Shown: piece by piece, positions 35,606 to 60,842 of the stretch
How positions within the stretch are numbered: position 1 is the stretch's first letter
Layout of the letters: every line of letters starts with the position of its first letter
From: Cytobacillus oceanisediminis 2691
GTDB lineage: Bacteria > Bacillota > Bacilli > Bacillales > Cytobacillaceae
Assembly (NCBI RefSeq): GCF_007678455.1
Contig: NZ_VEEP01000011.1
Span: forward strand, 62,001-126,000
DNA: 64,000 nucleotides
Direction: 5' to 3'
Translations under genes and position numbers: made by a program
The notes under the pieces: model-generated
Seen by the model: the letters and a program-made list of their open reading frames with translations, nothing else
Databases searched by the model: none
What the model was told of the DNA's origin: nothing

Positions 35606-35894
35606 ATAAGGCCAGTATCCTAAAATTTGTAGTTCTCACAATGAATTCAAAATTTACAAGAAGCAACAGCAAAATCAATACTTAAACAGCTTTAACTAAA
35701 AAAATTGGATTTGTCCCCTTTAAGTTGTTCAGTTTTTCTGTACAGAAGGAATGTAACTTGAGGGGGAATTTTTACTGGTAATAAGGATCAGTAATTTTTG
35801 CAGGTTGATTGATTGACGAGAAAGTTTTTATTGACATAAAATCCTGTGTCATACATAATGTCTAATAAACTGAAAATTTAAATATAATCGTCAA
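35606..35894. other. AT-rich intergenic region before the T-box
   Basis: This should contain the proBA promoter; TTGACA at 35832-35837 followed by CATAAT about 18 bases later is a fair -35/-10 pair for it. No gene or repeat is seen. Confidence 0.45.
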
Positions 35895-35899
35895 CAGTA

Positions 35900-36137
35900 A
35901 TGACAGGGAACCAGTAAATAGAAATCAGGCAATAGAGAGTAGGATTCACCGGCTGAAAGATCTTACAGCCTGCAAAGCTATTGAACCTATCCCTTGAACT
36001 GTCAGGAAAACCTGACCGGCTTCCGCCGTTTCCGGAACATGAAGTCGGGCACTTGTATGATAAGTGCCAAAGAAGGTGGTACCGCGAAAGACAAGCTCTT
36101 CCGTCCTTTTATCAAGGGATAGGAGGGCTTTTTTTTA
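35900..36137 (+). promoter_or_regulatory. T-box leader (proline-type) upstream of proBA
   Basis: Stem I is closed by TGACAG (35901-35906) and CTGTCA (35999-36004). Its 3' side carries GAACCTAT with CCT (35986-35988), a proline codon, in the specifier position. The T-box core AAGGTGGTACCGCG is at 36073-36086. A terminator follows (AAGCTCTTCCGTCCTT/AGGGATAGGAGGGCTT, then T8). Uncharged tRNA-Pro would stabilise the antiterminator and turn on proline synthesis. The specifier assignment is by eye and fits the downstream genes. Confidence 0.9.
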
Positions 36138-57927: not shown

Positions 57928-58641
57928 ATGAAAGGGAAAAGAGGACTATCTCCACTTGCCACAGCCAAGAAATTCATAGATGACCGGTTTCCTGACTGTG
58001 ACGCAGCGCTTCTGGCCGGGAGTGTAACCAGGGGGGAAGCAACCGAAACCTCCGATTTGGATATGGTGGTCTTTATAAAAGATATTCCCTCAGCATACAG
58101 AGAGTCATTGGTCGCATATGGGTGGCCAATTGAAGTATTTGTACATAATCTGCACACCTGCAGAGAGTTTTTTCAAAACGATATTAGCAGGGCGAGGCCC
58201 AGTTTGCCCAGAATGGTTGCTGAGGGAGTGGTCATCAGAAATAATGAATTACTGGCTGAAATAATCGATGAAGCGAAAAGTATCATTGAAGAAGGTCCTG
58301 CCGAATGGACGCTGAAAGAGATCGAGTTCAAGAGATATTTCATCACCGATACTCTGGATGATTTCATCGGGACAAATAATAAGGCAGAAGAACTCTTCAT
58401 TGCCAATGGTTTGGCTGACCAACTTCAAGAATTTATTTTAAGGACCAACAAACGGTGGATCGGCAAGTCAAAATGGGTAGTGAGGGAATTAATAAGATTT
58501 GACCCTGAATTTACTGAAAGATTTATTGGATCGTTCGAAATATATTACAAAACCGGAAACAAGCAAATGATCATAAAATTGGCGGAGGAAATATTAGAAG
58601 AATACGGTGGCAGATTATTTGATGGTTTTTCAATTAGATGA
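57928..58641 (+). CDS. nucleotidyltransferase-domain protein
   Basis: A 237-residue protein with the pol-beta-type nucleotidyltransferase motif near residue 30: LAGSVTRGEATETSDLDMVV (G-S-x-x-R-G-x-x-x-x-x-S-D-x-D). The third acidic residue is probably the Glu in WPIEVFVHN. The C-terminal helical part (~110-237) may bind the substrate. Relatives modify small molecules (aminoglycosides) or act in two-gene MNT/HEPN modules, but no HEPN partner is adjacent. GAGGGGGGGATTTGC precedes the ATG. It is directly followed by the 52-bp repeat array. Confidence 0.85.
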   Translation: MKGKRGLSPLATAKKFIDDRFPDCDAALLAGSVTRGEATETSDLDMVVFIKDIPSAYRESLVAYGWPIEVFVHNLHTCREFFQNDISRARPSLPRMVAEGVVIRNNELLAEIIDEAKSIIEEGPAEWTLKEIEFKRYFITDTLDDFIGTNNKAEELFIANGLADQLQEFILRTNKRWIGKSKWVVRELIRFDPEFTERFIGSFEIYYKTGNKQMIIKLAEEILEEYGGRLFDGFSIR

Positions 58642-58696
58642 AAAAGCAGCCATATTATTGACTGATTTAGATTGCTTATTCTCAGTCTTTTTGAAT

Positions 58697-59740
58697 CTTG
58701 ACAGGTTTGAAGGAGTAGTGTGAAAAGCTGTCAAAAACCCGTCGTTATTTTGACAGGTTGGATGGTGTAGAGAGAAAAGTTGTCAAAAATCCATCGTTAT
58801 TTTGACAGGTTTGAAGGAGTAGTGTGAAAAGCTGTCAAAAACCCGTCGTTATTTTGACAGGTTTATAGTTGTAGAGCAAAAAGCTGTCAAAAATCCGTCG
58901 TAATTTTGACAGGTTTGAAGGAGTAGTGTGAAAAGCTGTCAAAAATCCATCGATTTTTTGACAGGTTAGATGGTTTAGAGCGAAAAGTTGTCAAGAATCC
59001 ATCGTTATTTTGACAGGTTTATAGGTATAGAGCGAAAAGTTGTCAAGAATCCATCGTTATTTTGACAGGTTTATAGGTATAGAGCAAAAAGCTGTCAAGA
59101 ATCCATCGTTATTTTGACAGGTTATATGGTGTAGAGGGAAAAGCTGTCAAGAACCCGGCGCTATTTTGACAGGTTTATAGGTATAGAGCAAAAAGCTGTC
59201 AAAAATCCGTCGTAATTTTGACAGGTTGTGAGGTGTAGAGCAAAAAGCTGTCAAAAATCCGTCGTAATTTTGACAGGTTGTGAGGTGTAGAGCGAAAAGC
59301 TGTCAAAAATCCATCGATATTTTGACAGGTTAGATGGTGTAGAGCGAAAAGTTGTCAAGAATCCATCGTTATTTTGACAGGTTTATAGGTATAGAGCGAA
59401 AAGCTGTCAAAAATCCGTCGTAATTTTGACAGGTTGTGAGGTGTAGAGCGAAAAGCTGTCAAGAATCCATCGTTATTTTGACAGGTTATATGGTATAGAG
59501 CAAAAAGCTGTCAAGAATCCATCGTTATTTTGACAGGTTATATGGTGTAGAGAGAAAAGCTGTCAAGAACCCGGCGCCATTTTGACAGGTTATATGGTGT
59601 AGAGAGAAAAGCTGTCAAGAACCCGTCGCTATTTTGACAGGTTTATAGGTAGAGAGCAAAAAGCTGTCAAGAATCGGTCGTTATTTTGACAGGTTAGATG
59701 GTCGCGAGCGAAAAGCTGTCAAAACCACGTCGTTGTTTTA
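58697..59740. repeat. array of ~20 tandem 52-bp units with TTGACAG/CTGTCAA inverted repeats
   Basis: The unit is TTGACAG, a ~23-base variable linker (GTTTATAGGTATAGAGCAAA-like), CTGTCAA, and a ~15-base core (ARAATCCRTCGTTATT-like). The period is 52 bases (988 bases over 19 steps), so it is not a coding repeat. The two 7-base arms are almost invariant across copies (some carry TTGTCAA), while both linkers vary (GGTTTGAAGGAGTAGTG, GTTGTGAGGTGTAG, GTTATATGGTGTAG; cores CCCGTCG, CCATCG, CCGGCG). Each core can fold as CTGTCAA-loop-TTGACAG. The array lies between convergent genes. Confidence 0.92.
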
Positions 59741-59762: not shown

Positions 59763-60179
59763 TTAAGCTTTGTAAATTGTGAAGGCAGCTATGCAAAAAC
59801 AGCTGATGATAATGATCTCAATCGTGAGAAGGTACCAAATCCCTTCAGAAGCGGCAGTTCCTGCCATCGGTGCCGTGAATCCCATGATTAAACCAATTAG
59901 ATATCCAGTCAATATTGTTTTGTAGTTAAATAGATTTCCAAATAGAATCCCTGATAAACCTCCAATAATCACGGAAAGCAACGCGGCCTCCAGGAAGTGT
60001 AAAGGATTTAAGTTGATAAAAATCAGCCCCGTTCCCAGCGCTAATCCGGCGGCGGCCACCATCGTTATATTCCTGCCCAGGTGTAAATCGATATACATTC
60101 TACGATTGTACAAATAGATATATAGAATATAAGCTGATAAAAAATTTATTGGATAAAAAATCACAATCCACTCCGGCAA
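59763..60179 (-). CDS. hypothetical membrane protein
   Basis: A 138-residue protein with about five membrane segments (WIVIFYPINFLSAYILYIYL, MVAAAGLALGTGLIFI, ALLSVIIGGLSGILFGNLF, GYLIGLIMGFTAPMAG, IEIIIISCFCIAAFTI). Family not recognised. Small-residue-rich helices with GLSGILFGN and GLIMGFTAP suggest packing in the membrane or oligomer formation. It is convergent with the nucleotidyltransferase gene across the 52-bp repeat array. Confidence 0.75.
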   Translation of the reverse strand: MPEWIVIFYPINFLSAYILYIYLYNRRMYIDLHLGRNITMVAAAGLALGTGLIFINLNPLHFLEAALLSVIIGGLSGILFGNLFNYKTILTGYLIGLIMGFTAPMAGTAASEGIWYLLTIEIIIISCFCIAAFTIYKA

Positions 60180-60693: not shown

Positions 60694-60771
60694 CGGTATA
60701 AATTTAGCTTTCCTTTTATAAAATGTATGATAAAATGAATAAGTCAAAATTACATATTCCGTCTATACGGA

Positions 60772-60803
60772 AGAGGTTCTAGCTACCCTCTCAAAAAAAC
60801 TAA
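60772..60803 (+). promoter_or_regulatory. preQ1-I riboswitch
   Basis: AGAGGTTCTAGCTACCCTCT followed by an A-rich stretch and ACTAA matches the class I preQ1 aptamer (P1 stem, C-rich loop, A-rich pseudoknot strand) known from Bacillus que operons. It lies 60 bases before queC and directly upstream of a terminator hairpin, so ligand binding would stop transcription. Confidence 0.93.
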
Positions 60804-60808
60804 GGGAA

Positions 60809-60842
60809 AACAGTACTGCTGTCTTAGTGGTGCTGTTTTTTC
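60809..60842 (+). terminator. riboswitch-controlled terminator before queC
   Basis: AACAGTACTGC and GTGGTGCTGTT pair with wobbles around a 7-base loop, followed by TTTTTT. Expression platform of the preQ1 riboswitch. Confidence 0.85.

Follow-up and report, generated by a model that had tools for sequence, protein, structure and literature searches.

Introduction

Tandem repeats with a 52-nt unit form a class in Bacillus that has a constant size and a variable sequence and has been described as enigmatic (Subirana and Messeguer 2021, PMC8161180). The class has been recorded in B. selenatarsenatis and is common to B. boroniphilus and B. subterraneus, its repeats contain short signals, often together with their reverse in one and the same repeat, and its function has been left undecided, with small RNAs and a nucleoid protein that polymerises as the two proposals (PMC8161180). 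The 52-nt arrays of B. coagulans are reported to be transcribed (PMC8161180; PMC8625621). Two other kinds of repeat invite comparison. REP/BIME sequences are described as high-copy extragenic palindromic elements with regular spacing and alternating orientation (PMC2817692), features that the arrays analyzed below share, although the latter have a half-site without an internal palindrome and a fixed 52-bp tandem period. In CRISPR loci, a comparison taken from PMC8161180, constant and variable segments likewise alternate, but the linkers of the present arrays repeat within an array instead of being unique spacers, and their half-sites alternate in orientation.

Here we describe an array found in the window, that is, the whole 64,000-nt stretch of DNA analyzed. 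The array belongs to the published 52-nt class of constant size and variable sequence, and the statement of an earlier note on this DNA that its unit matches no known repeat class is thereby corrected. As in that class, the period is 51-53 bp and no multiple of three, a genome carries many arrays and families of variable sequence and constant size, short signals occur with their reverse in the same repeat, and array length is partly conserved between strains (11 of 16 shared loci differ). By our own count, 17 letters likewise separate GGACAGcTT from AAGC in family 71_52_7, published for B. alkalitelluris. The repeat class itself is thus already published; what is new here, and has no counterpart in the main text of PMC8161180, is the alternation of half-sites every 26 bp, the extended half-site and the co-orientation with replication.

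Results

The array in the window

The kilobase array of about twenty 52-bp units between convergent genes that the earlier note had reported is real. Direct parsing yielded exactly twenty units, every step being 52 bp, and TRF reported 58698-59739 with period 52, 20.0 copies and a score of 1261. Its parts and flanks are as follows (S stands for G or C).

57928-58641, + strand: flanking ORF with an NTP_transf_2 nucleotidyltransferase domain, ending 56 bp short of the array
58698-59737, + strand: array of twenty 52-bp units, with G at both S positions and a purine-rich long linker on the + strand of the window
58699-58707, + strand: first forward half-site TGACAGGTT, present in 20/20 units, one per 52 bp
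58708-58724, + strand: first long linker, 17 bp, variable (direct parsing)
58725-58733, - strand: first reverse half-site (AAGCTGTCA on +), 26 bp past the forward one, with a C>T variant in 4/20 units
58734-58750, + strand: first short linker, 17 bp, variable, A-rich and then T-rich (parsing and column comparison)
59763-60179, - strand: flanking convergent ORF of 138 aa, hydrophobic by eye (ORF list)

The arm TTGACAG is unbroken in all 20 units and CTGTCAA in 16, the remaining four having TTGTCAA. Since 29 of the 52 columns are invariant, the claim that only the arms are kept fails inside this array; it describes the differences between arrays better. The long linkers of the 20 units have a purine fraction of 0.741 and a GC skew of 0.781 on the + strand. 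A protein repeat, which the earlier note had dismissed, is ruled out by the period of 52 bp, which is no multiple of three. The NTP_transf_2 ORF served as the synteny anchor for comparing loci, and in a Pfam scan of five flanking window proteins the 138-aa product had no match at E 0.001. Elsewhere in the window are a PreQ1 riboswitch aptamer (60767-60809, +), followed by ORFs whose sequences resemble those of queuosine-synthesis genes, and a T-box leader (35891-36111, +) barely above its gathering score (93.8 vs 93 bits).

Half-sites alternate every 26 bp and are conserved across arrays

Across arrays, the unit resolves into a 9-mer, TGACAGSTT, that flips orientation every 26 bp, or 2.5 helical turns. 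The step from forward to reverse half-site is 26 bp in 810 cases and that from reverse to forward in 783, with at most 19 cases each of 25 and 27 bp; whole-unit steps are 52 bp in 722 cases, 51 bp in 17, 53 bp in 11 and others in 9. Like half-sites therefore recur every 52 bp, which at five turns (52/5 = 10.4 bp per turn) places them on the same face of the helix.

Conservation was compared in 99 arrays comprising 717 units, which may be orthologous between species and hence not independent, and whose orientation was assigned partly from linker purines. Mean within-array variation was 2.5% in the forward half-site, which served to find and chain the arrays and is thus conserved partly by construction, and 2.0% in the reverse half-site, which was not demanded in chaining, although one exact forward-reverse-forward stretch was required for retrieval of the named loci, vs 12.4% and 15.4% in the linkers. 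Likewise not demanded in chaining were T6, kept in 98 of the 99 arrays, and A46, kept in all 99, which lie three positions outside the half-sites and in no search pattern; the extended half-site TnnTGACAGSTT is kept across arrays with differing linkers, and the half-site also persists between species and strains. The arms are thus specifically conserved, as the earlier note proposed, and the outcome of its test of arms against linkers speaks for a function or for maintenance that is sequence-specific. Independence of the linkers is incomplete: AGAGC is found in 18 of 98 arrays, vs 3.7 expected. Known leading-strand words were rejected as an account of the linkers, AGCGG occurring in 13 of 98 arrays and GAGAAGGG in 1 of 98.

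Arrays are widespread in the genus

In the genome from which the window derives, TTGACAG-N23-CTGTCAA with at most one mismatch has 305 matches and the reversed control pattern has 1, a difference that excludes chance; among the matches listed, these form separate arrays with differing linkers. The search for further arrays in related genomes, suggested by the earlier note, was positive: TGACAG arrays are present in 17 of 21 genomes of the genus, with 0 for the control pattern, and the window array is one of many intergenic 52-base arrays in this genus. The genus is presumably Mesobacillus, as the array of G004, assigned to the same genus, sits at the positions of the M. boroniphilus locus L095. 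The other four genomes, one of them 66% complete, lack TGACAG arrays, which are therefore not essential. Among these four, G014 (240 kb sampled) and G002 (160 kb sampled) have 52-bp arrays with other arms, and no 52-bp array was found in the 100 kb sampled from G008.

In the rest of the family, 6 of 172 genomes have 1 to 6 matches at up to two mismatches. A scan requiring one exact forward-reverse-forward stretch retrieved, among the matches listed, arrays in records named M. selenatarsenatis and M. boroniphilus and in strains filed as Bacillus sp.; a record titled Chryseobacterium that carries the same arrays is probably misnamed. The half-site variant TTCGGACAGSTT, again at a spacing of 17 bp, occurs in 15 of the 397 genomes by which the order was sampled (control, 2 of 397). 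Nine of the 15 are of the genus, and the six outside it, of which one has no more than one match, belong to other families. A viral origin was ruled out, as viral contigs gave 0 exact matches.

Unit number and arm sequence change between strains

The earlier note had also proposed comparing copy number between strains. For a subset of 17 arrays of the window's genome, comparison with G061, a conspecific genome in a single contig, placed 16 at the same locus, with flanks 94-100% identical and unequal unit number at 11 of the 16. In 192 aligned unit pairs, the rate of change per site was 0.015 in the arms and 0.043 in the linkers. Fast gain and loss of units would account for linkers that are alike within arrays and unlike between them.

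Turnover extends to whole arrays. At one locus, two strains of one species agree in 99.6% of their flanking sequence but enclose arrays that are unrelated, one with TGACAG arms and a 52-bp period, the other with CATAAGG and 53 bp. Here (L208 2068-2778 and L169 2974-3650) the whole intergenic region differs from the stop codon on, terminator included; the upstream gene, named from its sequence, we take to encode aconitase. The locus of the window has TGACAG arrays in G000, G061 and G013, and a 52-bp array with arms GTCACATTAA/TTAATGTGAC in G006, G012 and G018. Further 52-bp arm families recur between genomes, namely GGTCACCAAT/ATTGG, GACATTT/AAATGTC and the GCATTGCCCGAAAA family (loci L171, L182, L220, L221; L178, L202, L235, L249, L250; L145, L242). 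Higher-order periods of 104 and 156 occur in arrays, and in the compound arrays L049, L050, L032, L075 and L092 TRF shows a GGACAG-/TGACAG-type block with CTGTC[CT] partners adjoining a TGACAG block.

Most relatives that lack a TGACAG array have a terminator-like hairpin, GCAGCC...GGCTGC-T, behind the nucleotidyltransferase gene, as recognized by eye at loci L124 and L126-L139. One arm of this hairpin is missing at window 58640-58695, and G013 has a broken T run. That the array replaced the terminator behind this gene is only suggested by these sequences, which represent one lineage.

Such turnover brings up the possibility of a replication-shaped satellite without function, produced by slippage and unequal crossing-over, in which arrays would survive mainly in the orientation whose replication is stable and the arms would belong to the amplification mechanism. 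It would accommodate the quick change in unit number between nearly identical flanks, the periods above the unit level, the unlike arrays at one locus in two strains and in other species, and the species that have no arrays. Slippage, however, is indifferent to arm sequence, yet one half-site at fixed spacing recurs in many arrays, and the close variant TTCGGACAGSTT appears in other families. We consider this explanation rather improbable.

Base identity, not pairing, is kept in six of nine arm pairs

The earlier note read the units as hairpins, possibly of a structured RNA, and proposed a test of arm covariation. Linker columns show no excess of complementarity, and in the arm pairs 10/42, 11/41, 12/40, 13/39, 16/36 and 17/35 there are 14 pair-keeping vs 12 pair-breaking transitions, so that in six of the nine arm pairs it is base identity that is kept, not pairing, and the hairpin or structured-RNA proposal is weakened. 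The opposite holds for pair 14/38, where wobble-keeping changes prevail by 53 to 9, bringing the six pairs plus 14/38 to 67 vs 21; pair 9/43, an arm end with mostly transversions, and pair 15/37, a G.G mismatch, were excluded. Circular palindromicity of the consensus units was weak and mixed (p <=0.05 in 45/103 TGACAG arrays and 9/17 other arrays, the 17 including L133 and L180, which represent a single G009 array without inverted arms) and was set aside as evidence.

In each of 71 polar arrays, folding as single-stranded DNA is predicted to be more stable for the leading-sense strand. In G061 this strand folds better in 19 of 20 TGACAG arrays, among the matches listed, vs 66 of 106 control intergenic pieces, and for two units of the window the folding z is -4.96 on the + strand and -1.51 on the - strand. 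Together with the wobble preference at 14/38, this bias is the main support for a rival explanation, a single-stranded hairpin element, whose G-rich strand is the lagging-strand template and would fold when exposed at the fork, and whose units would have been spread one-way by a strand-specific enzyme (TnpA of IS200/IS605, a RAYT-like enzyme or another acting on single strands). The direction of the wobble changes fits it, as C38>T (53 units; G14>A, 9), the commonest change at a conserved arm base, keeps a G.T pair solely on the leading-sense strand, and so does the targeting of the lagging-strand template by IS608 and ISDra2 (PMC6006769). It is at odds with the absence of pairing preference in the six arm pairs, with the retention of T6 and A46 beyond the usually unpaired position 8/44, with the minority position of fully pairing units (16 of 99 arrays have C in place of G at column 15), and with the lack of a strand bias in the other arm families, whose leading-sense strand folds better in 6 of 10; the folding bias also depends, by our reading, partly on the parameters for G.A and G.G mismatches. 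The Pfam family Y1_Tnp has a match in 18 of the 21 genomes and 0 matches in G006 and G015, both of which bear arrays, and RAYT/IS200 was rejected as a present-day driver on this ground. A hairpin element appears rather unlikely to us. Hairpins on the lagging-strand template are generally expected to favour loss, and the position of the more strongly folding strand on that template speaks also against the functionless satellite.

Array polarity follows replication

The unit is polar, one strand having G at both S positions and a purine-rich long linker. Where examined, this G-rich strand is almost always the leading strand. The GC-skew switch of G061 was located between 2.52 and 2.56 Mb; among the matches listed (167 in all), the polar strand is the + strand in 12 of the 13 arrays before it and the - strand in all 7 beyond it, and 19 of 20 follow the replichore. 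G061:C1:525532-526236, which the window's genome also has as L204, is the sole examined G061 TGACAG array, among the matches listed, that opposes its replichore. In the other single-contig genomes the resolved arrays following the replichore number 10/11 (G009), 8/8 (G019, one array sitting at a local skew of only -0.002), 11/12 (G015) and 9/10 (G018). The five genomes together give 57 of 61, with G061 counted among the matches listed; this count is exclusive of three G018 arrays and one G015 array between stretches of opposite skew, the other arrays of these two genomes having been scored from bracketing stretches.

In stretches of seven drafts, with polarity defined by the two S positions only, 69 of 73 polar arrays match the surrounding skew (p about 1e-16), and 60 of 61 do so where skew exceeds 0.04; of the 98 arrays, 20 had no clear polarity and 5 short flanks. 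Outside the array, the window has a skew of +0.106; on this basis + is presumed to be the leading strand, and the window array obeys the rule. The same holds for other arm families, whose purines are on the leading strand in 20/21 vs 133/187 control pieces (p about 0.014), after exclusion of loci that were short, weakly skewed or rich in N.

Ordinary mutational strand bias was ruled out as the cause of this polarity, as the long linkers of G061 are far more skewed on the leading strand (GC skew 0.50, purine 0.71) than other intergenic DNA (0.08 and 0.52). Array orientation also tracks replication better than it tracks genes. Among the matches listed in G061, arrays agree with the left gene in 10 of 20 cases and with the right gene in 13 of 20, and by a crude ORF caller 205 of 274 genes are co-oriented with replication, which sets the agreement to be expected of arrays that do no more than track genes at 75%; against this rate, p is 0.04 for the 19 of 20 arrays of G061, among the matches listed, and 2e-5 for the 69 of 73 of the drafts.

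SRS/KOPS sequences, too, are skewed to one strand along the direction of replication. The arrays differ from them in consisting of long units, and the octamer GAGAAGGG, which we take to be an SRS/KOPS octamer, occurs in 1 of 98 arrays. What is shared is a skew of short DNA marks to the leading strand, SRS/KOPS being the polar octamers of SpoIIIE/FtsK (PMC5869595). In titles and abstract openings, we found no literature on the orientation of 52-nt arrays relative to replication.

Readings based on transcription are weakened

Arrays with two callable neighbors, 63 after the omission of 35 of 98 at locus edges and by the same crude ORF caller, lie in 40 tandem, 14 convergent and 9 divergent gaps. 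Convergent over divergent gaps are enriched (14/9 vs 25/54 in other intergenic gaps, p 0.015). A barrier between converging transcripts, one of the functions suggested earlier, is weakened by the 40 arrays in tandem gaps and by an orientation that tracks replication more than genes; an array of terminators seems disfavoured, as arrays occur in divergent gaps too.

Transcription of the array into repeated hairpins, as a small RNA, a sponge or a 3'-end element, could draw on the transcripts reported for the B. coagulans arrays (PMC8161180; PMC8625621), on the closeness of arrays to gene 3' ends, at a median of 91 bp (n 68) as against 196 bp (n 58) for 5' ends, and on the 28 of 40 tandem-gap arrays that share the orientation of the genes (p 0.017). 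The agreement with replication is nevertheless closer, in G061 (19/20 among the matches listed, vs 10/20 and 13/20 for genes) as in the drafts (69/73 vs 28/40), and this argues against a role at the transcript level, as do linkers without complementarity and the window array itself, in which Rfam found no family at the gathering score. The RNA reading is thus weakened like that of the barrier, and we hold it to be very improbable.

Discussion

Half-sites that stay the same at a constant spacing in array after array, while the linkers vary freely, speak for recognition of a specific sequence. That pairing is hardly constrained speaks for duplex DNA, pair 14/38 being a contrary case, and the orientation connects the arrays with replication or segregation, be it through function or through survival. 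We therefore tentatively read the arrays as helically phased, sequence-specific DNA half-sites in a process linked to replication or segregation, and put the probability of this reading at roughly 0.45, somewhat short of even odds. A putative sequence-specific DNA-binding factor would occupy the phased half-sites cooperatively, and its complex with the array would act in, or be selected by, a process running with the fork or from origin to terminus; candidates are nucleoid or segregation organization and fork-linked processing rather than gene expression. The protein-binding array proposed in the earlier note is partly supported; no cognate protein was found for the half-site. This counts against the phased half-sites, and so do the several arm families at the 52-bp period, which call for several factors or for one that reads geometry, the strand-biased predicted folding, superfluous to the binding of duplex DNA, the wobble preference at 14/38 (53 vs 9), the recurring linker words, the non-essentiality of the arrays and the differences in unit number.

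A broader form of this reading, which we regard as speculative and unlikely, would make the arrays chromosome-wide polar marks, phased protein arrays of one polarity per replichore that direct a fork-following or origin-to-terminus process. That process might be a segregation motor, fork restart or nucleoid folding, and families of half-sites would change between lineages while the five-turn geometry stays.

For the 52-nt class, nucleoid and small-RNA roles have so far been proposed and none shown (PMC8161180). The strict half-site, the 26-bp alternation and the polarity that follows replication make the open question of this enigmatic class directly testable, namely whether a protein binds TnnTGACAGSTT and what consequence the reversal of an array has. 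The wrong-way array of G061 (G061:C1:525532-526236, the one such array among the matches listed) could show whether orientation matters.
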